Source: Isoetes taiwanensis (taxonomy: Eukaryota > Streptophyta > Lycopodiopsida > Isoetales > Isoetaceae). Taken from it: 64,000 bases of DNA. The number at the start of each line of letters is the position of its first letter. Positions within the stretch are counted from its first letter, which is position 1. Below the pieces are notes generated by a model. That model did not search any database and was not told the origin of the DNA. It saw nothing but the letters and a program-made list of their open reading frames with translations. The stretch spans positions 248,001 to 312,000 of the forward strand of contig JAJEKV010000138.1 in the NCBI GenBank assembly GCA_021234155.1, written 5' to 3'. Below, piece by piece: positions 1,198 through 34,589 of this stretch. The position numbers and the translations under genes are program-made.

Positions 1198-1300
1198 CAG
1201 GGATAGGTTCTATACGTACAAAATTAAAATTTCTGACGTATAAAGTTAAAAAATACGTATTTTTTAATAAAATACGTATTTAACGTATAAATACCTCGCC
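1198..1300 (+). repeat. hAT left terminus (inverted repeat plus AT-rich end)
   Basis: The outer inverted repeat is about 19 bp. It is followed by an AT-rich stretch with repeated ACGTAT motifs and then a CCTCGCCGG box. A diverged second copy of this whole ~100-bp end starts at 1674. Confidence 0.85.
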
Positions 1301-2130
1301 GGCCGGAAAAAAAATCTTCGCCAAGACTGAAAACCTTCGCCGGAAAGCCGTGCGCTGCGAAAATTTTTTGCACGAAATAGAAAGAATCGCTGCGAAAGGA
1401 CAGTTCCCGACATTCACAGACGCCGAAAGCTTCGCGGATAGCCGCGTCGCGAAAATTTTTTCACAGACGCTATCCATTCATTTCGCGACGAAAAGCAGCT
1501 GGTGTTCGAAAAAAAAAAATCGGCAAAAAATACTCAAGAAATAACAATTCGGCGTCGGAAGATTTTCGCGAAAAACAACTAAATCGCGTCTGACGAAAAA
1601 AGTCCGCGTGACTGTGTGGCGTTGTTTTTCGACGTCTGTGAAAAATTTTGGTTTTCAAGGCGACTGTGTTCCGTGGATAGGTTCTATACGCACAAAATTA
1701 AAATTCCCGGACGTATAAAGTCAAAAATAACGTATTTTTAATAAAATACGATTTAACGATAAAACCTCGCCGTGGGAAAAAAAATTTCACAGTCTGAAAG
1801 CTTCGCGAAGCGTCTGTGAAAAAACTTTCGTCTGACGCTCAAACATCTAATTTTGGCGCCGCATAAAAGTCTGGTCGACTTTTCGCGACGCCGGTAAACC
1901 CCACAGCGCTGAAAGTTTTTTTCGCACAGACGCTTTGAACTATTTCAGCGTGCACGCCAAACCGGCGATGTTCGCGTCTGATTTGGTTTTACGCCACAGA
2001 CGCTGAAAAGTTTCAGCGTCGAATCGGGTTTTCAGCGACGTGAAATTTTTATATATTCGGTGGGCGTGGATTGATTTTTGCGCGCCAAACAAGGTATTTC
2101 CTCGCCTAACCTTGCAATTTGCCACCCAAA
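1301..2130. repeat. Left subterminal repeat region of the hAT
   Basis: Short motifs recur in both orientations: CACAGACGC/GCGTCTGTG near 1416, 1462, 1630, 1809, 1924 and 1995, and TTCGCGACG/CGCGAAAATTTT. The right subterminal region (13215-13860) has the same vocabulary. In hAT elements such as Ac, arrays of short subterminal motifs are transposase-binding sites, and I infer the same role here. Short reading frames in this stretch are by-products of the repeats. Confidence 0.7.
1674..1775 (+). repeat. Internal copy of the hAT left end
   Basis: The bases from GGATAGGTTCTATACGC through the ACGTATTTTTAATAAAATACG tract to the CCTCGCCG box repeat the outer terminus with scattered changes, about 475 bp further in. 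A matching internal copy lies at the right end (about 13540-13672). The element therefore has duplicated ends on both sides. Confidence 0.8.
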
Positions 2131-3621
2131 ACCTTTTTTTTTTTTTTTTTTTTTTTTCTTAGTTTTAGGTTTTTTTTGTTGTTTTTGATAGGTAGGCGGG
2201 GTTAGGGTCCTTGATTAGGCCCTCTTTGTTGCCCCCAATGTAAGGGCGTAACGATGGTGAGTGCCTTGTTAATGTGGGCTGAGCTTGGCCTATTTTAGAA
2301 AAAAAAAATAATAATAATAATTTAAGCAAATAAAAAAAATAATAATTTAAGCAAGTAAAAAAAAAAAAAAAAACCAAAAAGAAAAGAAATTGGTTGCCTT
2401 CCTTAAACAACAATTTGAGAGGGCTTTTTAGGGTTGTGTGTTGCCAAAGCATAGGCATGCCCCTTGCCCGGTATTGTCAAGCATTTATTTGCGCCATGCC
2501 GAGGGTGGGTGGCTTCTTTGAAGCTTAAGGCAACTAGGGTCTCCCTTTAGTAAGAGTATAACCCTCACCGACGCCGTTGTTGGCCTTGGTCACGTGATTG
2601 TCGAAAGGTGTGCGTTGTACTTTTATTAAGGGTTAGGAGAATGTTTTATCAATTCACACCCTAGTTCACGATGGTGTTGTTGATGAAAGTCCGACACTAA
2701 TATAGGGCTGGCGTATGTTTTGATAAGCATTGATTGGTCTCGTCTTTTGAAAAAAGCGTGACCTAGGACAAGTGCAATGCATTTAAAACTTGCTAGCCTT
2801 GCATTTTGGAAGTATTTGGGCTATAGATCATAAATCGTGTTTTGGTCCTTTTATTTGTTACCCTATCCTTGGCCTTGCACATACATACTCATGTTAGGGT
2901 CTTAGTGTAGGAAGCATAAAATTAGTGTTTTGTTTTGGTTAAAGTGAGTTGATTTACCCTCATGTGCTAAGCACTAAATTGAAAGTTTTATCTTTGCTTG
3001 ACTTGTAGGTGTTCTTTGTTGTCGATTCGTATTATCAGCGAGTCGCATTTTGCTAGCCCCGCTAGACAATCCCTTAAAACAAGAAGTATGACTTGAAGAG
3101 AGAGCGGAAGTTAACTTGCAACCAAATGTGGCATTAGTGTCTCGGATAGAGCATAAACCGGTAGAGGCATTGGCGTCTCAAACACGTGCTCTGGAGCCGC
3201 AAACCCGGTCATCTTCTGCAAAGACCGCCACAGCGTGAAAAAAGTAGACCACAACAAGCGTGGTCTACTTTGAGACCAGATTTCATGAACCGGTTGTGTA
3301 ATCGTGCAATGCCTCATTTCGAGGATTTGGAATTGATTACTAGCGGTGAGGAAGGATGGCTAGACTACCATGCAGGGCTGGTAAAAGATGCTTAGAGAGA
3401 GGGCTTTTAAGCTTCGAATGATGGAGCTAGACCACTGAAAAGAGTGAGCAAGAGAGGTATACATGGATAGTGGGTAATATTAGCCGCACTACCGCAATAT
3501 GATCACGAAGTTGCAAATTTGAGTAGTCATCGCTGAGGCTAGAGTTGAAAGAAAAAGCCAAAGCACATGGAATGCGGCGTGGACCAACAGAAAGTTGAAG
3601 AAAGAGGCCCATCAACCCCCA
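2131..3621. other. hAT interior without a recognised gene
   Basis: It contains an 18-base T run near 2140, A-rich runs near 2300-2370, and otherwise ordinary mixed sequence. A frame at 3186-3395 (ending GEEGWLDYHAGLVKDA) has protein-like composition but I do not recognise it. It may be further captured host sequence. Confidence 0.5.
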
Positions 3622-3754
3622 TCTATCTTATATTATAAAAAGTTTTAGTATGTCTTCAATCAAACCCTAATTTAGATAGTTGAGATCGTCGATAGCATTG
3701 AAGGCGAGATTTATCGTGACAACTTCTCACCACGTGATTGGCCATGCTCGATCT

Positions 3755-5312
3755 CTTAAGAGGAAAGGGAAAATGGCGAGAAAAGGGCAAAAGTGAGAGG
3801 CAAAAGGCACGGGTAAAAGGGAAAGATTTAGGAGAAGGAAAAAGGAAAGGAAAAAAGAGCACGAAAAAGGAAAGAAAAAGAAAGGGAGAAAATGGAAGGA
3901 AAAAAGGACACTATGAAAAAGGAAAAGGGGAAAGGGTAAGGACAGAATAAAGGGAAAAGAAAAGGGAAGGGAGGAAAAGGAAGAAAAATAGGGCAACGGG
4001 AAAAAGGTGAAGACGGAAAGGGTGACGGAAGGGAAAAAGGGGAAGATAAGAATGATGTAGAGAAGGAAAAAAGGGCATGGAAAAATAGAAAGGGAAGGAA
4101 AAAGGAGGCAAAAAAGGGAAAAGGGCATGAGGAAAAGGGAGAGGGAAATGAGAGAGGAAGGAGAAAGTGGCACGAGAAGAGGAAAAGGGTGAGGAAAGGA
4201 AAAAAAGAAAGGCAAAAAGAGATGGAAAAAGAGAAAAGGGAAAAGCGAAAAGCAAAAAGAGAACAGAAAACATGGAATAGGAAAAGAGGAAAAGGGAAAA
4301 GGGGAAGAGGGTGGGAAAAGGAGGAAAAAGGGCATGTGAAAAAGGTGGAAAAAATGGAATGGAAAAAAGGTGTGGGAAAATGGAAAGGAAAAAGAGAGAA
4401 GGAAAAAAAAAAAGGGTGGAAAGGAAAAAGGAAAAGGGCATGGAAAAAGAGAAAAGGATGAAAAAAAGAAGGAACAGGAAAAAGGAAATGGGAGGCGAAA
4501 GGGGAAAAAAAAAGAACACGAGGAATAAGGAGGGAAAATGGAAAAGAGGAAGGGAAAAAGGGCACAGAAAAAACTGGAAGAGGGAAAGGGTGAGCAAAGG
4601 GTAAAAATAAAGGGAAAAAGAGCATAGGGAAAGGGAAAAGAAAAAGAAAAAAGGGGAAGAGGGTAAGGCGGAAGAAAAGGCAAGTAAAAAGAAGTGGAGA
4701 AAAAGGAATGGAAAAATACATGGGAAAAAGGAAAAAGGAAAAAGGAAAAAGGAAAAAGGAAAGGGAAAGAGAAAAGGAAGGGGGGAAGGAAAGAGGAAAA
4801 GGGCACGGGAAAAAAGGAAAGGGTGGGGAAATGATGAAAAAAGAAGGAAAGGGAAAAAGAAAAAGGGAGGCGGAAAGGGGGGAAGGAAAGGAAAAAAGGC
4901 ATGAGAAAAAAGGAAGAAGAAAATGGGAAAAAAGAGACATGAGATAAAGAAGAAGAGGGTGAGGAGAGGAAGAAAAACATAAAAAAAAGGTGGGGAAAAG
5001 GGAATGCAAAAAGGGCATAAGAAAAGGGAAGGGAAAAGAGAAAAGCAAAAGGAATGGGAAAAGGAAAGGGAAAAAAGAGCATGAGAAAAATGGGAAGGGT
5101 GGAGAAAGGTGAAAAGGGAAGGAAAAAAGCCGTCAAAAAAGGGAAAGGGAAAGGGAAAAATGAGAAGGAGAAAAGGAAGGAAAAGAGGAGGGAGAAGAGG
5201 GTAAAAAAGAAAAGAAAAAAAGAGAGAGAGAAGGAGAAAAGTAAATGTGCAAGAAAAATAAGAAAAGGGAAAAAAGAAAGTGTGTAAGAAAATGAGGAAA
5301 AAAGGATAGGGA
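3755..5312 (+). repeat. 1.55-kb purine-only tract (degenerate GGAAAA-type minisatellite)
   Basis: The plus strand is almost entirely A and G, built from GGAAAAGG/GGGAAAAAGG blocks. They are punctuated by GGGCATG, GGGCACG or GCATGAG boxes roughly every 40-60 bp or multiples (for example near 3807, 3857, 4121, 4170, 4331, 4436, 4800, 4888 and 5078). Long minus-strand frames here (up to 533 codons of F, S, P and L) are products of the CT-rich complement and not genes. Purine-purine-pyrimidine tracts of this kind can form triplexes. Confidence 0.85.
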
Positions 5313-5413
5313 AGGTTATCAAATGCACAAAAACCTCTTATAGCCTAGATATGATGAACTTGGTTAATGAGTCTGAGCTGAATAGGTTTCCATCCACAAA
5401 TGTTCCCAACATT

Positions 5414-5432
5414 TGCCCAGCAACGCTGGGCA
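5414..5432 (+). other. Helitron 3'-terminal hairpin
   Basis: An 8-bp perfect stem (TGCCCAGC/GCTGGGCA) with a 3-base loop lies 6 bases before the terminal CTAG. The identical hairpin occurs at 34252-34270 in the second Helitron, so both belong to one family. Confidence 0.88.
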
Positions 5433-5442
5433 CCATTACTAG

Positions 5443-6643
5443 TCTTGTTAAGAAAGTGTTGGCGCAAACCATAAAAGCCAAACGTCCTGGTGAGACAGAT
5501 AGGGAGTGGGAAGCTCGTAGAAGAGCAGATGCCAAGACTACTTGGTTTGCCATGGTAGATTCATCACAAATAATAAATAGACAACGAATTGGTTCTGGTT
5601 CATATGGTGCAGTGTATAAGTGCAATATTTTAGGGTCTAGTTTTATTAAAGATGAACCTTATTGTGTAAAACTTCAACATAATAATTTTCAGCATAGTAC
5701 AGAACCCAATAAGTTAGTGGAAGCTATCTTTGAAGAACATGAGGGAGTCAGGAATGCAAGTTAGGCGGGTGTATAATCTTTGCATTGGTAGCACACAACC
5801 GCCCTAGAAAGACAAGGCTTAATTTTCCCTTTTTGGAATGGAGGTTCGTTGGCAACCTTCTTTACAAGTCATGGGTCCAATGCCTTTTGCAGAGCTTGCA
5901 TTTAAGAAGTTGGGAGCTGTCCCCGAGTTGAGGCGGACTTGAGGTGCTTGAGGAGCCTTGAGAAAGAAAAGAATTATTTGTTGCCTCTAGGGTTGGGGAC
6001 TTAGCAATGTCATTCTCAGAGCGGGCTCACGAAAAGCTCCATCAAGAAAGATATTTGCATATGGACTTGCATCGGGCAATATATTGCTCCATTTTGATTA
6101 TGGAAAGGAGAAGGGATGTATTAATCCTCGCCGTGTACATTGGCATTTGTGATTGGGGTGAATCGGGTTGATCCACGAGGCGGTGGAGGTAAAGCGATGG
6201 CATTACAAAGGGTATGGATGGCGAAGGTAAGAAAAGAATTGAGATGGAAAGGGCGGGGCATCCATATATGCATGATGATCTTTTTTTTTGGTAGTGGCTC
6301 AAGGCGGTGCACGCAAGGGTTGACTTTGATTTACAGGGGGCAGGCGTACATTGTCTACTACTTAGCGACTTTGCTAGTAAGTACTCCTACATGGAGTCAA
6401 TAGGAAACTTGGAGCAACAAGGCAAGCATCGGAGAATGTGCGACTATTTGAAACATTGCGTTGAGTCGCCAATGAGGGACAAAAACACGAAAATTTGATA
6501 TGGCCCAGCTACTTGACACAATGCGGGCGATTTTCATTGCTCTCAATTCCGTGCACGAGGCCACAATTGGAATCAGATTGGATTCTTCAACTTGGCGTGG
6601 TGGCGACGATGCATTAGACCATTTTGGTCCTAGTCACGCCTAG
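5443..6643 (+). pseudogene. Captured kinase-like gene copy within the hAT
   Basis: Coding similarity to the minus-strand copy at 13874-14806 begins exactly after the Helitron end (TSLVKKVLAQTIKAKRPGE). It contains a glycine-rich loop RIGSGSYGAVYKCN with the ATP-site lysine in CVKLQ, then a broken catalytic loop LHMDLH near 6060, and a magnesium loop CDWGE near 6155 (DWG in place of DFG). It continues through SYMESIGNLEQQ to a tail FDMAQLLDTMRAIF...FGPSHA with a stop at 6641-6643. At least four frameshifts or stops occur. The paralogue lacks the glycine loop, so this copy is nearer the ancestral form at its N-terminus. It is a protein-kinase-like fold of unknown substrate. The frame at 5351-5764 is a chimaera of Helitron end and kinase and should not be read as a gene start. 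Confidence 0.8.
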
Positions 6644-7940
6644 CGTGCATATTCACTTACATTCAAACATCCTTGTATTACATAATATTCCAACTAAATT
6701 CATTAAATGAAACATTATTGTGCGATGCTACATGAAAGATTATTGTCTATGTGTGTTGTGTAGCTTAGTTTTCCTTTTCGTGTTTTTGTGTTATTTATTC
6801 TATGCTTTTTTATATGTCGCGACTAACTTAACATTATAAAGACAAGAAGTCAAAGCACACCTATACAAGTCGATCGATTGCACTGTAGAAGTCAAGAAGT
6901 CCAAATTATGTCCCACGAGCGGGGCGAAGAATTGAATCGACACCACGGAATGTCGGTCGTCCACGGCCGGAGGAGGATCGGCATGGATTTTCGGTTCCCT
7001 CTAATTTGAGGACCCCTCTACTCGGTCTCCTTGGCATCAAGGGTTGGAGAACGAGCTTGAGATGTAAATTTGCTTTCGGCAAATGGAGAGCAAAAAGACA
7101 TGCAAGGGCGAATGAGTTTTCACTGGAGAGAGTTAAGAAAGGTTGCGTCGCGATGGATGAAGTTTCAAAGAGGGATAATTGCACCATCAGAGGTGCATAA
7201 TGTAGCTGGCGGGCAGGGGGCTATTGTCCAAGTGGAGCGGGACTACGACGATGTAATCACAAATTTGGACAAGAATGAGTTTGAAAGTGAGTGGCCTAGT
7301 AGGCGGGGTAAGTATAAGGCTCCGCGAGTGCAAGAATCTTTGTGGTTCGAGCAAAAGCACTTTCGGCGTCATGTCAAGTGAAGGGACATTTACCCCCAGC
7401 GGTGAGTTTAGTAAGAGTTTTTCTTGCGTTACAAGTATACCTCTGAGCTTGTGAAGGAAGTGCCCGTAAATTATGGGAGTAGGGAAATGGAGGCAAGGAA
7501 GCGGTAGTGGCGATTACGAAGAGGGTCAAGCTATCGGAAGATGGCGAGAGTGGGCCACATGGTGAGCCCATCACCATTACATACCTTGTTGCTTTTGGCT
7601 ATCCAACTTTTTGGAGGTGACGGGGGTAATTGTTTGGAGCCGTGAATGACCTTGTGGATATCCGGGCCCAACTAGAGAATGAGAGAAGTCGGAACCGACA
7701 CTTTTACGAGGAGAATATTCGCGAAGGACCGGAGTGCCGATGGGTATGATAAGATGGCCGCTGAATTAGAGGGCTAAGCGGCAACTAGCGGCATTAAAGG
7801 GAGGCAACGGTCCCAGAGAAAAACAACGAGCACTGCGCGAATTTGACCAAATCGTTAGACTCGACCCTTTTAGGGTGACTTCGGGCGGTCGATATCCTAT
7901 CTCCCTCGCGAGTATTTGTATGAGAGTCGATTGGGAAGAG
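6644..7940 (+). other. hAT interior; possible further captured coding sequence
   Basis: From 6660 to 6900 it is AT-rich with no gene. Around 6906-7380 a plus-strand reading (GRMSFHWRELRKVASRWMKF, then VERDYDDVITNLDKNEF and ESLWFEQKHFRRHVK) has protein-like composition, but I cannot name it. CAG and CTG triplets are scarce across this whole stretch, so apparent frameshifts here should be treated with caution. Confidence 0.35.
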
Positions 7941-8267
7941 CTAAAGGTTGTTGATTCTGAGACATTGCCAATTTTGTGGTGACAACGACCGCAGTGAGCT
8001 GGTACACTCTAGGGTGTGGGCATCGTATGCACATGCGATGTGTTCTTGATTGGATGTTGCAAAGCCGCTTCGTCCAACCTTGCAAGGCCGGATGGATTTT
8101 TCACGAGTTACAATATGCCATATTTAATATGCAAGGTCGCATGCCCGGCGTTGCCACATTTGACCTTTCGCGGGAGGGATGGGCGGATGCACACTTTTCA
8201 AACCTTTCGCGAGATGGAATTGTGGAGGGGGTGGAGGAGCAGCGTGAAGGAGAGCAGTGCGGACATT
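7941..8267 (+). pseudogene. RING-H2-like zinc-finger fragment (captured)
   Basis: One frame reads CQFCGDNDRSELVHS (C-x2-C), and the adjacent frame reads CGHRMHMRCVLDWM, which has the C-x-H-x2-H-x2-C core of RING-H2 fingers with the hydrophobic/tryptophan pattern typical after it. The last pair is degenerate (QPCKAG in place of CP-x-C). A frameshift between the two halves breaks it. RING-H2 proteins are usually E3 ubiquitin ligases. Here it is a fragment inside a transposon and is unlikely to work. The tail to 8267 is unassigned. Confidence 0.5.
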
Positions 8268-8558
8268 AACCAGTTCTTACCACCACCTCCGGGGCGCGGG
8301 GTGATTATATTGATCCAAATGACCAATGAAAATGAGATATTACTGTTTAGACATGCCAAATTTTGACTGTATCATTTTGTGAATGGCGGGTATAATGACG
8401 TTATTTCAAACAAGGTGTAATGATGTTATCAAAGGATCGAGTAGTGCTCATAGTAAAAGCATCGAGACTTCCAAATCGCTCTTTCGTTTTCTGTTTGACG
8501 AGTAAAGGCATTGAGACTTCCCAATCTCTTTTATCCTGGCTTAGTCTCTTTTGTTTGT

Positions 8559-8816
8559 CACCAGGCCTTATATTCTCAGTGGCAAACAATATAGACTTCT
8601 CGAAATTCTTGTTACCTCCTTTAGAAGGAGCGAGCTTTGCTCTCACTCTCTTTTGCGTGTCTCTGTGTCAATGTATCTTAGATACTTTGCTAGGTTATAT
8701 TACACAAAGACGCGCAAAATGGGGGTCGGAGCAGAAATCGTTCGTTCTAGAGGAGGTTACAAGGCTTTTGAGTACTCTATTTTTATTGTGGCCACGGAGG
8801 ATATAAGGCCTAGTGG
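8559..8816. repeat. Foldback 1 of 7 (arms about 120 bp)
   Basis: The left arm starts CCAGGCCTTATATTCTC and the right arm ends GAGGATATAAGGCCTAGTGG. Reading the right arm in reverse complement matches the left arm with mismatches and small gaps over roughly 120 bp, including TTGTTACCTCCTTTAGAA against TTGTAACCTCCTCTAGAA. The loop is near ATCTTAGATACTTTGC. Confidence 0.8.
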
Positions 8817-8877
8817 TTGCTTGCGCATTACGTGTGTTCATTAGATGTTAGTGATTGAAGCAAGCTTTGACTCTGAA

Positions 8878-9003
8878 TTCAAGCATCGAGACTTCCCGTT
8901 TTTCTTTCCCAGGCTCTTTGGGCAATGTAGCTTAGTTTACATGCTAAGTTCCATTGTCCAAAGACCCGGGAAGCTAAAGATTGGGGCGTCTCGATGCCTG
9001 AAC
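8878..9003. repeat. Foldback 2 of 7 (type A, first copy)
   Basis: The arms are about 50 bp: TTCAAGCATCGAGACTTCCC ... CTCTTTGGGCAATG pairs with CATTGTCCAAAGACC ... GTCTCGATGCCTGAAC around the loop TAGCTTAGTTTACATGCTAAG. A second copy of this foldback lies at 9562-9687, and the upstream sequence GATGTTAGTGATTGA is shared too. Confidence 0.85.
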
Positions 9004-9182
9004 CAGTCGAGGCGTCGGAGGTGAGCGCACTCTAATTTCAAGCCAAAGTGGTGCACAGGCGTTGTCCATCTATCACGATTGGTACATTGGGCACCAAATC
9101 ATGGAACATCCTAACTCCTTCTATTGATGGAGAACCTTGAGCATCACTATGACTTGAAATTGGAGGACGCGTCACGTTAACT

Positions 9183-9356
9183 TTGGTACGCCAAATCGCC
9201 ATTTGGATGCCATCTGGACCTATAATTTGTACCTCCATTCCTTTGGGTGGCACATGCCATGCAAACCCATTTGGGTATTCAGCGCATGTGCCACCCAGAG
9301 GAATAGAGTACAGATTATAGGTCTGGATAGCATTCAAAGCCCAATTTGGTGTACGA
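9183..9356. repeat. Foldback 3 of 7 (type B, first copy)
   Basis: The left arm (GCCAAATCGCCATTTGGATG ... GGGTGGCACATGC) pairs with the right arm (GCATGTGCCACCCAGAGG ... CAAAGCCCAATTTGG) over about 67 bp with scattered mismatches. The loop is near CATGCAAACCCATTTGGG. It is repeated at 9735-9896. Confidence 0.85.
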
Positions 9357-9366
9357 AGTGTCTTCA

Positions 9367-9506
9367 ACTTCGCTCACCCGGCTTAGTCTCTTTTCGTTTT
9401 CTGTTTTGTGTATCTAATTTGCCCCCTAGGATGACATCGCTCACTCAGGTGGCGAATTAGATACGCCAAGCAGGAAACTCGAAAAGGGAGTAAGCCAAGA
9501 GCGCAA
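9367..9506. repeat. Foldback 4 of 7
   Basis: The left arm GGCTTAGTCTCTTTTCGTTT ... GTATCTAATTTGCC pairs with GGCGAATTAGATACGCC ... AAAAGGGAGTAAGCC, about 50 bp per arm. It shares the CTTAGTCTCTTTT motif with the stretch just before foldback 1. Confidence 0.8.
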
Positions 9507-9561
9507 CCCTCTTGAATGGAGCGTGATCCTTCGGGATAATTGGATGTTAGTGATTGATGAG

Positions 9562-9687
9562 TTCAAGCATCGAGACTTCCCAATCTTTCTTTCCCCTCCT
9601 CTTTGGGTAATGTAGCTTAGTTTACATGCTAAGTTCCATTGTTCAAAGAGGGGTGAAAGCAAGGGTTGGGAAGTCTCGATGCTTGTA
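9562..9687. repeat. Foldback 5 of 7 (type A, second copy)
   Basis: This is the best-paired type A copy. AAGCATCGAGACTTCCCAA at the left arm is matched exactly by TTGGGAAGTCTCGATGCTT at the right arm, the stem continues for about 50 bp, and the loop is the same as in foldback 2. Compensating differences between the two type A copies should be examined. Confidence 0.87.
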
Positions 9688-9734
9688 CTCAGGTCTCTTT
9701 CATCCTGGCCTGGAGCGTGATCCTCTTGAATGGT

Positions 9735-9896
9735 TGCCAAATCGCCATTTGGATGCCATCTGGACCTATAATTTGTACCTCCATTCCTTTGGGTGGCACA
9801 TGCCATGCAAACCCATTTGGGTATTCAGAGCATGTGCCACCCAGAGGAATAGAGTACAGATTATAGGTCCAGATAGCATTCAAAGCCCAATTTGGC
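9735..9896. repeat. Foldback 6 of 7 (type B, second copy)
   Basis: It is nearly identical to 9190-9350. The outer pair is GCCAAATCG/CCAATTTGGC and the inner pair GGGTGGCACATGC/GCATGTGCCACCC. The order A-B-(foldback 4)-A-B shows that the cluster grew partly by duplication of an A+B unit. Confidence 0.85.
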
Positions 9897-9918
9897 ATAC
9901 CGAAGTTATTCCCGACTT

Positions 9919-10107
9919 GGGTACCGAAGTACCTTGTGAACCTTCTGATGGATCAGATTCGTCCGGGCTGGTCCGAGGCTGTTTGGCCCCTTCACATGCG
10001 TAGATTACTTCTCATCAGCAAGATTCTGGCGCATGCGAAGAGGCAAGCAACAACGGAGGTCGAGACGGGTCTGATCCAACGAAGGTTTTCAGGGCACTGC
10101 GGTTACT
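9919..10107. repeat. Foldback 7 of 7
   Basis: The left arm (GTACCTTGTGAACCTTCTGA, GGATCAGATTCGTC ... CCTTCACATGCG) pairs with the right arm (CGCATGCGAAGAGG ... GGGTCTGATCC, GAAGGTTTTCAGGGCAC) over about 75 bp, less perfectly than the others. The loop is near TAGATTACTTCTCATCAGC. Confidence 0.7.
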
Positions 10108-10284
10108 CATGAAAGAAACATAGAAAGAAACATAGAAAGAACTATCATACATTAACGAAACATTTGTGACAAAAAATTATAACCAAAAACTTCTTTTTTT
10201 ATTAATAGTGCCAGGGGCGGTTACAATAGTATGAAAATCCTCAAGACCAATTACAGCGGTGAAGATACTCATCACATCATTTTT

Positions 10285-12873
10285 CTAGGCATCGCCTTCT
10301 TCATCAGTTTCATCATTTGCAGTTCCATCCTCTTCTTGCTGGGAACCTAGGTTCAACCTCCGATGACCCTTTCCTTTAGTGAAACGTCCTCGAGGCGATG
10401 TTTTTCCTAGCCCGTTCTCGTTTGTCAAGGTAAAGCGCAAAGGTGAGTCCGTTGGATCACGTAAGCCAGTCACGTCATCAACTGCATTGCTCGAACCTGG
10501 CCTTTCTGTATCAGACTCCTCGGTATCCTCGCTGTCGGCTGATCCGTCTGAGAATATGGCTTGGTCTATATCATCTTCGTCATCAACGAAGGGTAATGCG
10601 TTGAATGTCTTCATCAACATGGCTTGCGGCATTTATTGCAAGCATCTCGCCCTCACCTTGTCTTGAAGCTGTCCTCTTCCACTTGGAAATGCATCCATGA
10701 AAGGAAATCGTAGCTTATCGATTGCGGATGTACCTTTATTACGATTCAATAGCCGCCCAGTTTGAGAAGTTGTATACAAGTTTGTCGCCTTCTTATGTAG
10801 CAAGCGATTGCGGGTGACACTTTGTGTATGTACTTATAGGCACTCCAATTCCTCTCACTTGCACTATTGGAAGATACCAAAGAGAGGATAGTCATTGCAA
10901 TTGCACGCAAGGTGTCATTAACTTGCCCATGGGCTTGCCACCATGCATATGATTCCATATTTGGTTCCTTCTTATGACTCTCCGGTCGTCGTGAAGCTCT
11001 TCATCCGCCCACCTTCCACTCGGGTTACGGTATTGATTAACTTCGGCAATGAAAAGCTTGTAGTCCGGAAATTTGTTGGGATAGAACATTTTGCAACCTT
11101 CTTCAACGACCCCATCACTTCTTTATCTGTATGCTGGTCCATATCGTGGTTGTGTGGGTCTAAGGCATGCGCGGCGCCATGAAGATCACTGTATGACTTC
11201 TTCCATCGTTCATTGAAGTCTCTGAGTAGTGCTGCGCGCTTAGCATTGTCAAATGGCGCATTGGGACCATCACGTTCTAGGAAGGATTGAATGGAGTGCC
11301 AACACCTCCAGACCTTTCCAGTGCTTGCCTTCGAAGAATCAAGGGTTTTGATGGCATGACAAACAGGTTGCATGCACCTCACAACATTTTTTACACCTTT
11401 CCAAAATGTCTCCCGCCCAAGCATTTTCGAGGGCGGCAGCGACTTCTTTGTCGGTGTTTAGCGGCATTTTTCCCCTTTACGCCTTCTTTTCCCAATCAAA
11501 AAACTCTGTATGATTAAAGGTTGAGATAATCCAATCACGACACTTCAGCACTCTTTCAAGACAGATATAATTGGAACCAAACCGAGTTTGCCCAGGATTC
11601 ATGAGTGCTAGGCTCTTCTGACGCAATGACTTGTAAATGGCATAAATTGCCGGCTTCTTTGTGATGAATTTTACAAGCCGACGCGCTTTCTGAATGGGAT
11701 CTTTGAACCACGTGTGCTGTGAGAACCAGTCCTTCAGCAATAGGTTCAGGCAATGGCATTGGCAACTAGTAGCATGCAACCCTGGAAATTGGCCTCCCAG
11801 TAATTGACCCGCTAGCTTGCAATTAGACGCGTTATCCATTACAACTTGAAATATTCTCTTCGGTCCAAAACTCTCTATCACGGCCTTTGTTTTCTGAAAA
11901 AATCCAATCTCCGGTCACTTGGTCAGTTTTGGTTTCTACGGTTTTCAAAAATACTTCACCCCACGGATACACGATCATGAAATTAATAAGATGGTCCTTG
12001 TTTACATTGCTCCAACCATCGGTCACTAATGAAGGCGGCGGCGCTTGGTCCTACGACACAACTTCATCTCCACCCTCTCAACCATTTTTCCATGTATTTC
12101 ATCAACCATCTTATTGTTTGCATGCTTGTATGAAGGCGGTCTAAAAGCGGTCCCTGCTTTGGCAACTTCTTGGAAGGCTTCTTTCATTGCTTTATGCTCG
12201 AATATGTGGAGACGGCCCCCAGTATAGAAATGCCTCTACAACCTTGGTTGTGTCTTCTTCAATTGCTCGATGTTAAGCAATGATCAACCCTCTGTTGCTT
12301 CGATACGTCTTTCCACTATTTCAATTGTCTCTATCATTTCTCTGTTCTCCGTGCTTGTACCTATTGACCCTAGTCCAGCCCTCGTCGGTATCTTTGTCCC
12401 AGCAGGGTGGTATAGTTATCTTCGATGCCTTACGCCCGCCCCCACGCTCTTGAGTATTCGTAACTTCGTCTTTTCTCATATTATTCTTCGTTTTGCGTAT
12501 CCCATCCGGTCGAGACAATCTCGATGGCATCCTTTCGCAAGTCGGCGGATGCGATACAAGTTCGCGACACCGGCGTCTCGTTTCACGTAAGATGTGAGCT
12601 CGAATTCTTGTTCGAGAACCATTTACCGATGTGTATCCACAAAACACACATTCCCTTTCGTTTGCGCCAAACTCTTTCACAAACTCCCATTACGGGCCTC
12701 TTTTTAGACCCCGCAACTCGATCATCGGCGACCATGTGCACGAGTTCGCCGCGTCCCCGCGGCCCGCGGGGCACACGCGGTCCTCGCACCTCTAGAGGTA
12801 GATGCATGACCATTTTGCTGCACCTCGAGGTAGATGCATGACCGGTAGCCACCATTGCTCGGACCGGTGACAA
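10285..12873 (-). pseudogene. hAT transposase (BED finger, DUF659 and hAT C-terminal domain), broken
   Basis: Minus-strand fragments in order give a BED-like zinc finger (ECVFCGYTSVNGSRTRIRAH, near 12650), the central catalytic region with FQVVMDNASNCKLAGQL and CHCLNLLLKDW (11881-11720), and the hAT dimerisation domain (SNSASERNWSAYKYIHK, near 10870). An acidic tail follows (DDEDDIDQ) and a basic end, stopping at 10285. This is the DUF659-type plant hAT transposase, which cuts at the CAGGG ends. The reading needs several frame changes, and some codons have become stops, so it is broken as given. The upstream part before the BED finger (12680-12873) is low in complexity and uncertain. Confidence 0.85.
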
Positions 12874-13214
12874 TGTCTCTTAATCGACTCCTTGATTACC
12901 ACGAACTAAAGGAAGGCGATATATGCAAAGGAGCAAGCTCACAATGCATATGTTACGTCGGCGTTAAATCCGCGCGAAGAATCAAGGGGGTTGACGGGAC
13001 CCTATAGGATATTCTATGGAGGCGGATGCCAACCCAAGGTCGAAAACCGGGGACGGAGTAAACTCACGTTCGATTATCCAACGCAACGTCGGTGTGAAAA
13101 GCGACACCTCAAAGGCAAACCGTTTCCCAAGGAGTATTTTGACTCAACTGGCGGTCAACGTTCGAGGTGAATTCTAGGGCTAATCCGTTTTTCTTAAATA
13201 TACTATTAACGATT
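12874..13214. other. hAT interior between transposase and right subterminal region
   Basis: No gene or repeat is recognised. By position it would hold the transposase promoter and leader (transcription towards lower coordinates), but I see no convincing TATA element. Confidence 0.4.
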
Positions 13215-13770
13215 GCCACAAAACAGGTCAAACAAAGGGCGCGCCAAATATTTTTTGCTTAGTAAATCGGGCAAAAGCAATTTAGAAAAATTTTTCGCGA
13301 CGCGAAAGGAACAAAAACCGCGTGCGCGAAAATATTTTCGCGTGCGTGAAGATTATGTTTGGCGTCGCGAAGTTCAAAATATTTGGCGTCGCGAAAAATT
13401 TTAACGCCGCGTGCGAAAAATTCAGCGTCACAGCGGTGGCGTTGTTTTCGGCGTCGCGAAAAAAAATTGGTTTCGGCGTCTGTAGCTGTAATCTTCAGCG
13501 TGCAGAAATTTTTTCAGCGTGCAGCGGTTTTGTTGCTTTAAGCGTCTGCGAAAATTTTCGACAGCCGGAATTGTTTTTCCTCCCGTATTTTTTGCGTTTT
13601 ATCACGGCAAATTTGTGCCGTATCATTCAATTCATCATTATTAAGGTATAAAGCGCGTGGCGTATTGAACCTATCCCTTGGCGGTTACGAAGGTTTTGGC
13701 GTCTGCGAAAAATTTTTAGCGTCAGCGATATAGTTGTTTTCAGCGTGCGAAAATCTTAAAAGCCGGAATT
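13215..13770. repeat. Right subterminal repeat region and internal right-end copy
   Basis: TTCGCGACGC, GCGTCGCGAA, GCGTCTGCG and TTCAGCGT motifs recur, mirroring 1301-2130. An internal copy of the right end, from GCCGGAATTGTTTTT through GCGTATTGAACCTATCC, lies at about 13560-13672 and is repeated as the true terminus. Confidence 0.7.
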
Positions 13771-13873
13771 GTTTTTTGCCGTATTTTTTGCGTTTTATAC
13801 GGCAAATTTGTGCCGTATCATACAATTCATACGTATTCCGTATAAAACGTACAGCGTATTGAACCTATCCCTG
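13771..13873 (-). repeat. hAT right terminus
   Basis: GTATTTTTTGCGTTTTATACGG is followed by CGTATTGAACCTATCCCTG, the inverted complement of the left 19 bp with one or two mismatches. It is directly followed by GCTGCTTG. Confidence 0.88.
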
Positions 13874-14889: not shown

Positions 14890-15849
14890 ATGCATTTCCC
14901 GCGGGTATGCCCAAATGAAGGGGAGGTCAAGAACTGGATAACCAAATCCCAGCACATTCCTATTCTGTCTATTCTCAAGCTGGATAAAAAGTCCTATCAA
15001 ATTGTTTGCAGAGATGAGGTCTGTGTTAAACAAATTTTAAGAAGAAAGCTGGACTTCATTAACAATGCTCCTTTTTATATTATGAATTGGTCCCCTTTCT
15101 TCATCCCTGGCTCGGAGAAGGAAATTCAAACGTCTACTTGGCTATCTTTCCCGAATCTCCCTCCGGCCTTTTGGACTCGGTCCCATCTGTATACTCTCTG
15201 TGAACCTTTAGGGGAGGTCCTCGAAATTAATATTCCCCAAACTAACTTCCCTACGGTTTGTATCGCCAAGAAAATAACTTCTGATTGGAAAAAAAAGATA
15301 AAGATCAGAGTCAAGGCTGATGAGTTCATGGACCTCACCATTAATTACTCCAAATGGCCAATTCATGAACCTGCCTGTGACCCAGTGACTGCCCCGAAGC
15401 TTAAGCAGGTATGGGCCCCCAAGGTCAATGCTAAAGATAACTCAGGGGTGGAAGGGAGCAAGGCGGAATCTGTTAAGAGCTTGGAGACCCAGATTACCAC
15501 TAATCAGGGCAACATTGATGAACTTCTACCCAAGGTGGAAATTCACGAAGATATGGTGGTCCTCATCAAGAATGTCAACCTGGCTGTCAGAGTTGACTCA
15601 GGCAAGTTTATATTCTCTATCCCTGATTTTTCTAACCCCGCTCAGAAAGCAGATGATAAGGCTTCACGGACGGAAAATCAGGATATTGGGAACACCCGAC
15701 TCTCAGAAGACAAGGTATGGACAATAGTGAACAGAAAAAAGGGCGGAGGTAAGAAGAAGTTAAGTTTTAGCCCTAGCAGATCTAGTCCAAGAAAATTGAC
15801 CATCCAAGCGGGGTTGGTTTTGAGGGGAAGTATAGGGTTTAATGGATAG
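14890..15849 (+). CDS. LINE A ORF1, DUF4283 nucleic-acid-binding protein (5'-truncated)
   Basis: The open frame reads RVCPNEGEVKNWITKSQHIP, YQIVCRDEVCVKQILRR, WSPFFIPGSEKEIQ, LPPAFWTRSHLYTLCEPLGE and IRVKADEFMDL. This is the DUF4283 domain found in ORF1 of plant L1 elements, which coats the RNA. A lysine- and serine-rich tail (NRKKGGGKKKLSFSPSRSS) ends at TAG 15847-15849. An ATG lies at the very start of the element (14890), but the true N-terminus was probably lost by 5' truncation, since the target duplication abuts mid-domain. The upstream ATG at 14872 belongs to flanking DNA. No CCHC knuckle is visible. ORF2 begins inside its last codons. Confidence 0.85.
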   Translation: MHFPRVCPNEGEVKNWITKSQHIPILSILKLDKKSYQIVCRDEVCVKQILRRKLDFINNAPFYIMNWSPFFIPGSEKEIQTSTWLSFPNLPPAFWTRSHLYTLCEPLGEVLEINIPQTNFPTVCIAKKITSDWKKKIKIRVKADEFMDLTINYSKWPIHEPACDPVTAPKLKQVWAPKVNAKDNSGVEGSKAESVKSLETQITTNQGNIDELLPKVEIHEDMVVLIKNVNLAVRVDSGKFIFSIPDFSNPAQKADDKASRTENQDIGNTRLSEDKVWTIVNRKKGGGKKKLSFSPSRSSPRKLTIQAGLVLRGSIGFNG

Positions 15850-17820
15850 AGACATTAAATGTATTACCTGGAATCTCCAGGGTATTAACAATAACATTAA
15901 AAGGGAAAGATTGAAGGTTTGTCTATCATCTCTCAACCCTGACTTTTTGTTTATTCAGGAGCATAAATTACATGACTCTGATCATGAAAAAACCATTAGT
16001 AAAACTCTTCCTCCTAATTATAGTATTTGGTCTATTCCTGCTAATGATACCTCTGCAGGTATTGCTATTGCTTGGAAGAACTATTTAAATATTTCTGACT
16101 CTTATATGATCAACAGCAGGAATGGAAGGTGGCAGATACTCTTGTGTACCATTTATAGGATTAGACTAGCTTTGATAAATATCTATGCCTTTAACAATCC
16201 CACTGAGAGAGTGGAAGTTTGGACAGGAGTAAAAAATAGTCTGGATAATATTGAGTATGATGAATGTATTCTGGGTGGAGATCTCAACATGGTTACCAAT
16301 AGTTTCATGAGGAACAAGAATTTTAAACCTCTAAGCAGGAAGGAAAAGGAAGCTTGGCTGGAACTTACAAGTTGCCACAACTTAAACTTAGCCAGAACCA
16401 AGTCTGGAGCCTACAGTTGGACTGATAAGAGAATTGATCCCACTTTATGCCTTCATGATAGATATTATCTATCTGAAAATTTGTGGAACCACAGTAACAG
16501 GGTCATTAATTTGGAAGGATACACTCTCTCGGATCACTATCCCCAGCAGTTATGCATCACGGCTACCAATCAGTATAAGAAAAAGAGGAAGACTTATTTC
16601 AAACTTAATACCAGTCTGCTGGATCATGATGAATTTATGGATAGATTACAAGAGGTCCTAGTTAGGTTTCCCAAGCCCACAGGCCAATCGGGATGGATGT
16701 TCTGGTGGATTCAAGTTGCCAAGGCAATCAAGAACTGGCTCAAGGAATGGGGGAAACAGGTACATCGTGATAAACTCTCCTCCTTGCAGAAATTAAGAGA
16801 TAGCCTGCCCAATGCTCCTGAGGAGGAAAAAAATAACATCAGAGTGGAAATTGAGAAGGAAGAGATCAAGATTGCTGAAGGGTGGAGGCTCAAAGCAAAG
16901 ATAAGAGAAATCAAGGATGATGAAAGATGCAGCTCTAAATACTTCTTTGTAAAAGCCAAGGGCAAAATTAAAAAGAACCACATCTTTGAGATAAGGGTGG
17001 GGGATGAAGACATCACAAATGAGGATCAGATTAAAATTGCTGCAGCTAACCACTTCAAGAATATCATGGGTACCAATCAAGATAGCACCCAGGAGAATAT
17101 GAATAGATTCATTAACCTCCAAGCAAAGGTTAATATGGAGGAGAATTCCAGCATTGAGAAGCCTTTCTCCAATGATGAGTTATTTCATATTGCAAAAGAA
17201 ATGGAAAAGGGTAAAAGTCCAGGCCCTGATGGGCTCCCAGTGGAATTTTTTATCAAAACATGGCCAATTTTAGGGGATTGCTTCACTAATTTAGCTAATG
17301 AGTTCAGGATTGTAAAATGCTTGGATGCAAGAATCAACACGAGCTTTATCACGCTCATCCCTAAAACTGATATGCCCACCTCCTTCTCGGATTATAGGCC
17401 TATTTCTCTAACCAATGTGATTTATAAGATTATTTCAGGTACAATTGCCAGAAGGCTTAAGGGTGTGCTGGAGAGAATCATAAGTACTTCCCAAGCTGCC
17501 TACTTAAAGGACAGATTCATCCTTGACAATGTTGTCACAGCTATGTTGGGTCTGAATTGGGCCAAGAATACCAAACAAGATGTTGCTCTTATCAAGCTGG
17601 ATATCACCAAAGCCTTCGACACGGTAAGTTGGGGCTTCTTATTTAAATGTTGCAGGGCATTAGGTTTCTCGGACGCTCATAACTCGGGATTCCGGTGTCA
17701 GATTCAGGTGTTCTTGGGCTTGTTGAAAAGCTTATCGAACGAGCTTTCCGTCGGTGTATGATTTGTATGGTGTTTCCTCTGTTTTAGTCGCCGGAATCCA
17801 CCTGACAGTCCCGGCCCTCT

Positions 17821-28530: not shown

Positions 28531-28770
28531 AAAAGCCCCTTTTTTTTGTGCGAAGAAAGAATTGACTGTATCAAAATGACACTTTTTCATGAATTAGAAA
28601 TTTCCCCAAGTATATGTTTTTGAGAGAACTCCAGTTTTAAGAGAACGTAACATTTAACCGAAACTAGAAGTGAAGTAGTTACTGAAATTGTAGTATATTC
28701 AAAAATTGAAGATAAAATCTAGATATTCACATGCAAAATTTATAGTATTTTTAAAATACTCAGTTATGCA

Positions 28771-30500
28771 CAAAAGTGTGAGGAGTGCCGAGAGTCTATA
28801 TTGTTGCTTCGTGAATTTTGCGAATGCGTTTGACATTGTGCCTCGGGAAAAACTATGAGCAAGATTGCGATAGCTGGGGGTTCCTGTAGATTTGCAGAAT
28901 GCAGTGTACAGGCTATATGAAAGATGCTCGGGTCGGTTGCAGCCGACAAGCCAACCATTTGATATTAGTATTGGGGTTCGTCAGGGATGCCCTCTCGCCC
29001 CAACATTGTTTGGGCTTTACATTGATCAATTAGAGAGCTAGCTTGCTGATAATGGGGGCGATGGAGCTCACCTTCTGCACCAGATCATCAGGCAGTTAAT
29101 ATATGCTGATCATGTGGACCTCCTAGCTTACATACCAGCAGACATGCAACGACATCTCGATACCCTGGACACATTCTGCCAAGGGACTGATATACGCGTC
29201 AACCTGGCCAAGACTAAGGTGGTTCTCATATCATCCTCACGTCAGCGAGGATCCCCTCCTTCAGTTATCGAGGGCAGAATGTGGAAGTGGCATCCACATA
29301 CAAATATTTGGGAGTGGAGTTCCCTTCTACTATGCACTGGGACACATCCATATGGCTACGAGTGACGGCGGGCTGGAAGGCACTATATGCAATGCAAAAC
29401 AATAGTCCTAGAGCAGAGTTGTATGATTGGGCCCATCAGTCACACCTGTTCAAGGTCTTAGTAGACCCTGTCCTTTTATCACGGGGTTGAAGTATAGGGC
29501 CCGATGAGTATCCTTCGCTACTTGGAATGACTTGGAGCAGGTGCATAAAGCCTTCTTGGAATGAGCACTAGGGGTGAAGTCCACGGTCCCATATCAAATT
29601 CTCTTGCGAGGGAGAGGGGTTCTTGCCTCTTCAGAGGGCAGCCCTTGATCGCCATATTGTTTATTTTCAGAAGGTGGTCAATATGGACGATGCTCGTCTC
29701 CCTAACCTAGCTTATATCATGGCGCAGCGCTTCAAGGCCTGCTGGAGGGAAAAGAGAGCGCAATGGTTGGCTAGATGGAATGTGCAGGAGCACAGGTGCA
29801 TACATGTGCAAACAGAGGCAGATTGCCATAGCTTGAGGCAATATCTTGACGCTTACTTCCTCAGCAAGCTTTGGGATGCCAGTGCCCTTGAACAGGTCAA
29901 GACAACACACTACCAGCGCCACATAATCCCACATTGGAACGAGGCCCGCAATGTTATCTGCGTACCCACTTGCCTATGAAAAGGCGAGACTCATTGCCTC
30001 CATTCGCACAGGGGCACACCATCTTCGAATTGAGACGGGCAGATGGATTGGTGAGCCACGCCAGGACAGGCTCTGTCAATGCTGCCAAATGGGAGTCATT
30101 GAGGATGAATCTCATACCCTTCAAAGCTGCCCAGCGTATAATCAAATCCAGACGCGCTATGTTGAGTTGGTCAGGCCTGGTCAGCTGCTACATGTGACAT
30201 TGAGCACGACTTCCATACGGGTGCTGGGATCATACCTTCAGGATGTTATGGACATGCGAGATCAGCTATGTCCTCGGGCACACAGTTGACATGTATATAT
30301 ACATTTATTTCATGATGATGTATACTTGTATAGTTTGACAACATTCTTATTACTGCCACAGTTTTTCCCTCGAAAACCCTTCGGGGCGGGAGTTTTTCAA
30401 CCCAGACAGTAATAAGTTTGCTGCGCTCCTTCTGGGTCCCATAGGCCGACTGGTCTCAGTGGACGATAAAAATCATTCTATTCTATTCCATTCTATTCTT
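28771..30500 (+). mobile_element. LINE B fragment, unit 1 (reverse transcriptase to 3' tail)
   Basis: It begins near motif A (NFANAFDIVP, first D changed to N), then GVRQGCPLAPTLFGLYIDQL, LIYADHVDLLAYIPADMQRH (the YxDD box is YADH), LAKTKVVLISSS, VPYQIL and the zinc motif CQCCQMGVIEDESHTLQSCP near 30080. It ends with the conserved 3' UTR (30331-30470) and an ATTCT pentanucleotide tail. The catalytic aspartate changes and frame breaks mean it is dead. It is duplicated at 37707-39432. Confidence 0.87.
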
Positions 30501-30908
30501 TAACCATTAACCATGATATATGAATCCCCATGATAGATTTAGCGTTTCTCAACAATTCCAACATCGGCCTTTGTACAACTTGATGTTATCTCAGTATTTT
30601 CACTATGATTGTGCTCTGTATAAGATGATCACTATCCTTTATATGCATAAATGTTGAATACCCAAGTCTGATAAAACAATATATGATGACCTATAATATT
30701 ATGATTCCAGCAACATGTTTATTTCCATCTCAGTGATGATGATGTTGTTCCCTTCTACCTGTTATTATGGTCCACGTGCATGATGATGCTTTATTCCACC
30801 CACTGGATGTTGTTATTATTAGTTCTCTACCCGTTGGCTCGTTTTGTGTTCTTTGCGAGTCCCTTATGAGCATGTTCTAAAGAATCATCCTACAAAACTT
30901 ATATAATA
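30501..30908. other. Flank of the duplicated unit up to the Helitron
   Basis: It is AT-rich with no gene. It is repeated at 36816-37228, 39433-39840 and 42377-42796, always between a LINE B tail and a secreted-protein gene copy. It therefore belongs to the ancestral tandem unit and may carry distal promoter sequence. Confidence 0.6.
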
Positions 30909-31148
30909 TCCTATATTATAATGTTTTGCTGTAATTCCTGGATTTGGATCCAGCCCTAGATCCTAGGGCCACAAATGACCTGGCTATATCGAAGGGTCCA
31001 AATTTTTGTCTTTTTTTTTTGGCTCGACTCTGTTTTTACCATTAGGCTTATTTCTTCCAAACTTACCTTTCTAGGGTTTCTTTATGGCAGAGCAGCGGGC
31101 TTTGAGGTGCTCCCAAAATTTTATCTCTTCCTCTTCCGTTGCAATATG

Positions 31149-32860
31149 TCCATGGCGATCTACACGAAGGTGCTCCTGCTCTTGGTCCTGCTATAATTTT
31201 TCTCTGTGAAAAAGACCATTGGTTTCGGGCTTACTCCAAATCCTAATGCTGCTTCAGTTGTTATCAGTCATGTCAGGTTAGAGCTCTGCGTTATGGCTAT
31301 GGCCGTCACTTCTTATGGCGAAAACAGGTGGACGTTTTGTAGTCTTCAAAGGAACAATCCTCTTCAACAGCGATGTGAGCTCCTTCATTATTGTATATTT
31401 TCTTTTCCGGGCTTGGATCGCTTGCTCCACAGTCCAAACATCAAATCCTTCAGCAGTAAATGGTGAGCTATATGAGACACAGAGTTCGTTGTGTGCTTAA
31501 GGTAATCTTGCCAGATGGTCATGGTGAGACAGATGGTCATGCTGCTAAGTTTCTAGGCTATTCTTCTTAAACCCATATGGCTTGCCATCAATACTGTATC
31601 AATCCTGTTCTTATATGCAACTGTATGTGCTGCATATTTGTTGAGATCAAGTCAAACGTTCAGGTAGCCTCCAGTATTACATTGCATATAATGTGGTATT
31701 GTTTGTTTTAGGATAAAATACATTTGCTACAGGCCGTTGTAATCTAAGAGCTTTCTTGATTGTTGTAAATGCAGGGATATGGAATTGACAGCAGTGAAAT
31801 CACAATGTATTCTATCTCAATATTGATTGTGACAGATCCAGGAATATGGCAGAAAAATATCTTATGAGTCATGCAACCTGGTAAATTCTTGAGAAGTAGC
31901 TCTTATAGCATTCATTTTAGTAATGCGAATATCGCTATATGGATTTTGCAGGAGTGTTGGAGGGTGAGCCTTTGTTTGAGCATCAGATGTTCTCATTTAC
32001 CACATCCAAGAATTGCCAATAGGGCATGGGCACAACCGACAGGCAATGTTAAGCAGGCTCAAGGACCATTCATACAATATGTGGAAGTCGCATGCGTTTT
32101 AGATGGCAATCATACTACGAAGCAGATCATTGTACCAATTCGGGAGACAACTTGGTAAGTGTGCATTGTTTCAAATTTCTATCTCTTTTCCTCCTTTAGA
32201 TGCTTCAGATGCAGGGTTTATGCTTATTCATATAATCAGCTTTGTCGAATGGCAAATGGAGAACATTAAGATATATTTCTGAGAATTTTGTAGCAGAATG
32301 AGACGTTTTGCACATGGTCTTACGACTGGGATGAATGAGCTACTCTGTGAAATGCATGGATAATGTAGTTCAACTAAGGCAACTTTTTAAATTTGACATG
32401 CCTTAACTTATAAAATATAGCTTGGTGATGAGTTCTATTGTATCTTGAGAGCTGAAATGAGTGTTGTTTGCTATGCCAGTCAAACTGTTGAAGCCATTTG
32501 CTGTAGAAGATGTTAAACTTTGAAAAATTATCAGTATTTGTGTATGGGATTCAAATCTTAAAAGCTCAATGGTTTATAGTTTCTTACATTTCTCTGTAAA
32601 AGGGCAATGAAAATAGAAAACTCTATGGTGGTCTGATTCTACGAATATTTCTTCCTGTTCCAACTTCCAGTTGTTTGATTAATCATGACTCCTCTGCAGT
32701 TAAAGCAGAGCTCTAACTAAAATTGCATGTTTATATGATTTTCAGCAGTAACTACTTCCATTGTGGATGGACAATTGACCAGCATGATCTACAGGTAGAA
32801 GATCCTCTCAATTCAAATATTGTGATGCACGTTTTGGCAAAGGTAATAAGTTTTGCAAGG
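31149..32860 (+). pseudogene. Split host-gene fragment captured by the Helitron (unrecognised)
   Basis: Exon-like blocks with splice-like borders: YGIDSSEITMYSISILIVTD near 31776-31850, QPTGNVKQAQGPFIQYVEVA extending to IIVPIRETTW|GTAAGT (ending about 32154), and AG|SNYFHCGWTIDQHDLQVEDP...VMHVLAKV near 32750-32845. An earlier open stretch (MSMAIYTKVLLLLVLL, 31148) may be unrelated. I do not recognise the source gene. Gene-fragment capture with introns is usual for plant Helitrons. Confidence 0.4.
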
Positions 32861-33620: not shown

Positions 33621-33844
33621 GTCTTTTTATTTCAAGTCATTTTTTCGTTATCCTTATGTTATGTGAGATTTTCTAGGGAATAACATGGTTATTCCCTAGA
33701 AAATCTCACATAACATAAGGATAACGATACATGTTTATTCCCTAGAAAATCTCACATAACATAAGGATAACGATACATGTTATTCCCTAGAAAATCTCAC
33801 ATAACATAAGAGGATAACGAAAAAAATGCTTGAAATAAAAAGAC
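33621..33844. repeat. Foldback with two internal tandem units, inside the Helitron
   Basis: The 5' arm GTCTTTTTATTTCAAGTCAT...AGATTTTCTAGGGAATAAC is inverted at the 3' end (GTTATTCCCTAGAAAATCT...TGAAATAAAAAGAC), about 65 bp per arm. Between the arms are two direct copies of an approximately 49-bp unit made of the same sequence (TTATTCCCTAGAAAATCTC...AGGATAACGATACATG). Confidence 0.85.
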
Positions 33845-34540: not shown

Positions 34541-34589
34541 GCACACATATATAACCTAGCTACAATAGTTACCAATAATAGTGTACAAG

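Follow-up and report, generated by a model that had tools for sequence, protein, structure and literature searches.

The window analysed here, a 64,000-nucleotide stretch of Isoetes taiwanensis DNA, contains a complete hAT transposon that carries an array of eight long imperfect hairpins. The array is real, common to many copies of the element and unusual, and a function for it is plausible. We tentatively favour, at somewhat short of an even chance, the reading that the hairpins are transposon-borne long-hairpin or proto-microRNA precursors, which would be made as plus strand RNA, diced and active in trans.

Anatomy and folding of the hairpin array

Inverted-repeat detection and folding resolved positions 8559-10100 into eight long imperfect hairpins, H1 to H8, all assigned to the plus strand. 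An earlier reading based on the sequence alone (the sequence-only reading) had counted seven foldbacks; these are real and fold beyond shuffled sequences, but H3 (9020-9175; inverted repeat I10) had been overlooked. Each segment was folded, as that reading had proposed, and compared with 100 dinucleotide shuffles per hairpin. The native energy lay below the best shuffle in all eight cases, with z values from -6.8 for H8 (9917-10100) to -19.4 for H1 (8559-8815). The z values of H2 (8873-9003), H3, H4 (9178-9362), H5 (9378-9500), H6 (9558-9692) and H7 (9735-9908) were -11.9, -7.1, -15.4, -11.8, -17.8 and -17.9, respectively. The fold energy of H1 was -146.1 kcal/mol on the plus strand and -113.6 kcal/mol on the minus strand, and that of H5 was -66.7 versus -46.0 kcal/mol. 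Two types had been seen to occur twice, and the comparison bore this out: H4 and H7 (type A) were 97% identical over 165 nt and H2 and H6 (type B) 83% identical over 103 nt. H6 forms a tandem pair in many copies of the array.

The arms measured approximately 60-125 nt, with mismatches scattered along the stems and terminal loops of 4-8 nt in the hairpin consensus, in agreement with the arms of about 50-120 bp, scattered mismatches and short loops described earlier. As DNA the arms were 23-35% divergent, and Watson-Crick pairing was found at 65-77% of positions on average. The array occupies approximately 1.5-2.2 kb and comprises eight or more stems of at least six different sequences. One-sided cassette remnants precede H1 on the plus strand (8452-8559; direct repeats D3, D4 and D6). 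They consist of the start of an H2/H6 arm, present twice (8452-8497 and 8501-8546), and of the beginning of a first H5 that has been lost (8535-8559), at which position H5 was found in a number of other copies.

The carrier hAT element

The element carrying the array spans 1198-13873 (12.7 kb). It is bordered by the target site duplication GCTGCTTG, identical at 8 of 8 positions, and 13 of the first 14 bases of its ends are alike. The placement of the cluster inside a hAT transposon was thus confirmed by an 8-bp target duplication, short terminal inverted repeats and a transposase with both a DUF659 and a hAT C-terminal dimerisation domain, each above its curated cut-off in the consensus ORFs. 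These transposase gene pieces lie on the minus strand at 10316-12879 (DUF659, 1.2e-17; Dimer_Tnp_hAT, 2e-09) and, like the kinase-like and RING-like ORFs below, were read from the consensus of 21 copies. The N-terminal transposase piece gave no match in the Pfam search and appeared BED-like by eye. Three relatives of the transposase were obtained in the protein search, the one from Taxus chinensis being 32% identical; a closer relative, P0001 (803 aa), showed 60% identity over 41% of the query.

The kinase copy and the RING fragment noticed near the cluster both lie inside the element, and their domain assignments held only in part. The kinase-like stretch (5443-6640, plus strand), whose consensus ORF at 6005-6640 encodes 213 aa, matched Pkinase at 3.3e-05 and 23.8 bits, under the curated cut-off of 31.7. 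Directly before the array is a coiled-coil-like and RING-H2-like stretch with consensus ORFs (7676-8326, plus strand; the coiled coil was called by eye), which scored above the cut-off for zf-C3HC4 (23.3 vs 21 bits) and below that for zf-RING_2 (25.7 vs 27.3 bits). The window's hAT copy was inserted into a second kinase-like copy (14804-13874 plus 1197-1143), to which the inner kinase-like sequence at 5443-6422 is 76% identical.

The array therefore sits between convergent frames, with the RING-like side on the plus strand and the transposase side on the minus strand. An AATAAA at 10198-10203 on the minus strand probably serves the transposase gene as its 3' end signal. Its position suggests that the transposase message would end before the array, which would then lie outside that message.

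Two further structural details of the element were recorded. A Helitron-like insertion at 3622-5442 has a TC start after A, an end hairpin (GCCCAGC..GCTGGGC) and CTAG before T; it is filled by a purine-rich tract of more than 1 kb, is missing from the 20 long copies described below, and its 3' hairpin recurs at 34253. The element ends also look doubled (1198-1700 and 13506-13873): GGATAGGTTCTATACG appears again near 1675, and 13506-13678 is an 83% repeat of 13710-13872 at the element end.

Copies of the array in the genome

The genome searched comprised 1,110 contigs with a total of 1,658,258,908 bases. With the array as query, a DNA search gave 1,424 candidate places, 40 of which were scored. 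The 40 copies compared were 20 long pieces, 19 shorter ones and the window's own copy; all of them were recruited by the array query, and this tally is blind to hAT copies without the array. A hairpin was counted in a copy when 60% or more of a window hairpin was matched there. By this measure 33 of the 40 copies had at least eight hairpins, with a range of 3-11 (3, 5, 7 and 11 hairpins in one copy each, 6 in four, 8 in 13, 9 in 12 and 10 in seven). One basic hairpin order was kept across the copies, with duplications and losses. The fullest common order was H5-H1-H2-H3-H4-H5-H6-H6-H7-H8, of which the window is without the first H5 and one H6.

In all 20 long copies the array had the same hAT context on both sides, the Helitron-like block at 3622-5442 being found in the window only. 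The search for further copies, which the sequence-only reading had proposed, thus agrees with its idea of a mobile element carrying the cluster, and the conclusion that the foldbacks have moved with the hAT element is supported. In a tree of 21 copies the tips were long and the inner branches short. In two of the copies (L026 and L038) type A was repeated at the array end, giving three H7-like units besides H4. Near 1,897,000 of contig C1069, four adjacent type-A matches were observed in one 288-codon open frame.

Strand bias of the arm mismatches

Neutral decay of the arms is expected to produce equal numbers of G:U and A:C mismatches on the plus strand. In the arms of the eight window hairpins, 51 G:U and 24 A:C mismatches were counted (p=0.0024). 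The consensus of six independent hairpins gave 43 versus 16 (p=0.0006) with H6 and H7 representing their types, and 43 versus 21 (p=0.008) with H2 and H4 in their place. The control, a single inverted pair formed by kinase-like sequence in the window, gave 46 versus 53 (Fisher p=0.0016 against 43:16 and 0.010 against 43:21). Variants in the rest of the element were strand-symmetric (759:765). Neither type A (H4/H7) nor the H2 consensus showed the bias.

Folding of the consensus sequences was better on the plus strand for H1, H3, H5, H6 and H8, and about equal on the two strands for H2, H4 and H7. Among single copies the plus strand folded better in 36/36 cases for H1, 35/36 for H2, 37/38 for H3, 40/49 for H5, 48/48 for H6 and 35/37 for H8. 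Type A mostly folded better on the minus strand, the plus strand energy being lower in only 9/32 cases for H4 and 6/43 for H7. A G:U bias among recent variants was dropped as evidence: with 21 copies, variants present in at least three copies were G:U-forming in 38 cases and A:C-forming in 17, and with 40 copies the difference was no longer significant (63:51 for variants in at least three copies and 73:55 for private variants).

Tests of possible retention of stem structure

Together with the mismatch counts, two further tests, one of energy cost and one of divergence, gave a mixed picture. For each variant, the energy cost was set against that of an identical change placed elsewhere in matching base context. 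Private variants came to 2.09 kcal/mol, where 2.25 was expected (n=384, permutation P 0.08), and those found in two copies 2.09 against 2.23 kcal/mol (n=160). For variants in at least three copies, some of which may be mis-polarised, the cost was 1.35 against 1.99 kcal/mol (n=303; 0/2000 permutations as low), and it was lower than expected in all eight hairpins. Variants in 5-8 copies cost 1.39 against 2.28 kcal/mol (n=84), and those in at least three copies at less than 20% frequency 1.72 against 2.20 kcal/mol (n=200; permutation P 0.0015, paired 0.055, rank 0.044). Private variants thus reflect neutral decay after insertion, while shared variants are less disruptive than chance, which suggests that structure was kept in the lineages that transposed. 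The plus and minus strands were spared alike, so that this test is by itself no proof of an RNA. We consider past selection for plus strand pairing in transposing lineages probable, most clearly for H1 and H6.

Other tests were less informative about the stems. CG/CHG decay was 0.106/0.124 in the array versus 0.129/0.149 in the rest of the element (21 copies), with no excess in the array, as would be expected if the inverted repeats attracted no additional methylation. Variants in at least three copies gave a relative N/S of 0.66-0.87 in the transposase pieces, indicating mild constraint throughout the copies compared. Covarying pairs were few (0-5 per hairpin family) and uninformative. A relocated-substitution test gave a very strong effect, but it counted related copies repeatedly and segment ends may be misaligned, and it was set aside. 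An early hint that the array was the best-conserved part of the element failed once base context was allowed for.

The serious rival to a functional reading is an array of palindromes with no present function, in which inverted duplications of captured sequence were duplicated or shrunk and copied passively by transposition. We regard this as a real possibility, though short of likely. With base context allowed for, most hairpins diverge like the rest of the element, at 0.60-1.33 of expectation for the hairpins, 0.96-1.39 for transposase parts, 0.90 for the kinase-like and 0.77 for the RING-like stretch. The variation in size from 3 to 11 hairpins, the tandem occurrence of type A, the neutral look of private variants and the lack of a significant difference between recent G:U-forming and A:C-forming variants are equally in keeping with passive copying. 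What such copying accounts for poorly is the G:U excess of the consensus, absent from the control inverted pair, together with the sparing of stems by shared variants and the fact that hairpins of the copies retain on average 74-107% of the consensus plus strand fold energy.

The strips flanking the array diverged little, with 0.43 of the expected divergence at 8381-8554 and 0.56 at 10110-10290; they are possibly promoter or 3' end signals. Such strips would also suit a role in cis, with the hairpins as 3' ends, readthrough blockers or stabilisers between the convergent RING-like gene and transposase, and so would the location of the array between convergent frames, with the probable poly(A) signal of the transposase a short way past it. 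This explanation appears unlikely to us, since one stem would be enough and at least eight stems of at least six sequences over approximately 1.5-2.2 kb far exceed the need of a terminator; moreover, no AATAAA was found on the plus strand between 8200 and 10500. Activity of the foldbacks as DNA, either as cruciforms or as binding sites in transposition or chromatin, would agree with the equal sparing of both strands in the per-variant test. It is nevertheless very improbable: hAT transposases bind at element ends, the array is internal and kilobases from those ends, and we know of no DNA-level reason for a G:U excess on one strand.

Whether the hairpins occur apart from one another bears on a last explanation. 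A peptide search with type A gave 1,081 candidates, of which 150 were scored and eight, mostly distant or isolated ones, were fetched. Other array hairpins were present at all eight, indicating that the hairpins travel as an array. The transposase-side flank was found at six of the eight; at one further match (L048) a short colinear flank piece scored above 200/200 shuffles, and L050 had no flank match. Independent MITEs that each landed separately in the element, the case which the sequence-only reading had set against itself, would account for the foldback shape only and are scarcely credible, given that all eight fetched type-A matches (of 150 scored) accompany other array hairpins, with a flank clear at six and weak at one, and that the hairpins keep one basic order across copies.

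MicroRNA and long-hairpin siRNA features

A plant MIRNA foldback is shorter than 300 nt and holds a 21-nt duplex with at most five mismatches. The eight hairpins are 123-257 nt long and each contains 35-84 such windows of 21 nt, which bears out the plant-precursor geometry that had been pointed out from the sequence. In a MIRNA gene, conservation is expected to be focused on the miRNA/miRNA* duplex while the loop diverges. Here several conserved blocks were found per hairpin, with no single favoured 21-nt duplex, and loop divergence was below 0.25 of expectation in seven of the eight hairpins, the loops being only 4-8 nt long. None of 25 Rfam matches over 8300-10300 reached its gathering score, the best being MIR5380 with 62.6 bits against 150, in accordance with the earlier remark that no arm matched a familiar microRNA. 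Known microRNA families were rejected as candidates, the sub-threshold matches mirroring shape.

The earlier interpretation as microRNA precursors or young hairpin loci thus stands as to geometry, and is not borne out by a favoured duplex, a diverging loop or an Rfam family. The stem shape, as modelled by folding, allows microRNA and long-hairpin siRNA alike. Long imperfect stems, as in a long-hairpin siRNA locus or proto-microRNA, are present according to the folds and z values, and precursors of this kind fit the array better than finished microRNA genes.

The origin of the arms was sought in several ways. No match to the arms was found outside the array in the element or the window, so copying from these was rejected as their source; small RNAs from the arms are therefore not expected to target the element's transposase. 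The arms carry open frames, but those tried had no family in Pfam and only PDB matches at E 0.69-0.98, none of them a credible relative, and no protein origin was found for the arms in these searches. Among the genome matches to one arm frame (150 of 1,081 scored), the eight fetched were all hairpin copies, and no parent or target gene was found.

Putative mechanism

Under the preferred reading, as precursors of long-hairpin siRNAs or proto-microRNAs, the hAT family would make, or until recently would have made, one plus strand RNA in which some eight to eleven long imperfect hairpins form. The stems of this RNA would be substrates for a Dicer-like enzyme of the host and yield 21-24-nt long-hairpin siRNAs or proto-microRNAs. 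These small RNAs might act in trans against transcripts, of the host or of rival transposons, that are related to the arms, and the element would benefit if some of the targets belonged to silencing. G:U pairs let the arms, diverged as DNA, pair better as plus strand RNA.

By analogy with transgenes, the G:U design may also be a self-protection from methylation. According to PMC9263138, perfect inverted-repeat transgenes attract methylation and self-silence, which is prevented by C-to-T changes leaving G:U pairs or by approximately 25% changes. The 65-77% Watson-Crick pairing of the array arms falls in the range of about 25% change that blocks transgene methylation in that study. As in those G:U hairpins, the arms would be too different for DNA methylation and be paired as RNA via G:U; unlike those engineered single constructs, the array is natural and has transversion mismatches too. 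An extended version of the mechanism, in which a modular, evolving array arms the hAT element against several host or rival genes, with cassettes gained, duplicated and lost and with G:U pairs keeping RNA stems while breaking methylation-prone palindromes, seems doubtful to us.

Comparison with known systems

To our knowledge, few transposons carry a small-RNA source directed against host silencing, and each has one hairpin or fragment. In Drosophila, a transposon (TART-A) reportedly targets the piRNA machinery, in a study on TART-A and nxf2 (PMC7785250); judged by the title of that study, the likeness is that of a transposon set against silencing machinery. TART-A is said to be a retroelement acting in the piRNA pathway, unlike the hAT array described here. 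By their titles and the starts of their abstracts, none of the open-licence PubMed Central papers retrieved for this comparison dealt with a transposon bearing several hairpins in a row.

The array may be kin in kind to the rice CACTA/miR820 system, with many hairpins instead of one. According to PMC3459959, a rice CACTA transposon carries pre-miR820, which probably derived from OsDRM2 and is aimed at it; Nipponbare has five CACTA copies with the foldback, and a BB genome has 18 or more. In both systems a foldback lies inside a DNA transposon and multiplied with it. In the rice case small RNA is produced and the likely parent and target, OsDRM2, is identified, whereas here the carrier is a hAT family, in which an element mostly has 8-10 hairpins representing six or more sequences, the putative source of small RNAs.

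Plant polycistronic microRNA clusters also have several close foldbacks on one strand, but those in PMC2812943 are reported as functional host clusters of MIR genes, while the row described here is mobile and putative. Transposon-derived hairpin siRNA and microRNA genes resemble the array in that foldbacks arise in transposon sequence (PMC3086885). Those genes are described as homologous to transposons, some being two inverted transposon copies, in contrast to the present arms, which match nothing else in the element.

If the preferred reading is true, a hAT family with a row of at least eight different hairpins, present dozens of times, would amount to a multi-target construct made by nature. 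Two questions could then be put to a direct test: how widely small RNAs serve transposons as weapons, and whether plant hairpin precursors contain G:U pairs in order to avoid self-silencing, an avoidance suggested for microRNA genes in PMC9263138.

Other features of the window

Repeated blocks were observed at 28700-44000, with ORFs at 28702 and 37638 that begin alike and have reverse-transcriptase-like neighbours by eye, and further repeated-block ORFs at 35053, 40616 and 43585. The same 20-bp tandem unit occurs at 34346, 37291, 39906 and 42850. These blocks suggest large duplications. Approximately 1 kb from the outer kinase-like copy, a 641-aa open frame at 15836-17758 resembles an L1-type LINE endonuclease and reverse transcriptase by eye.
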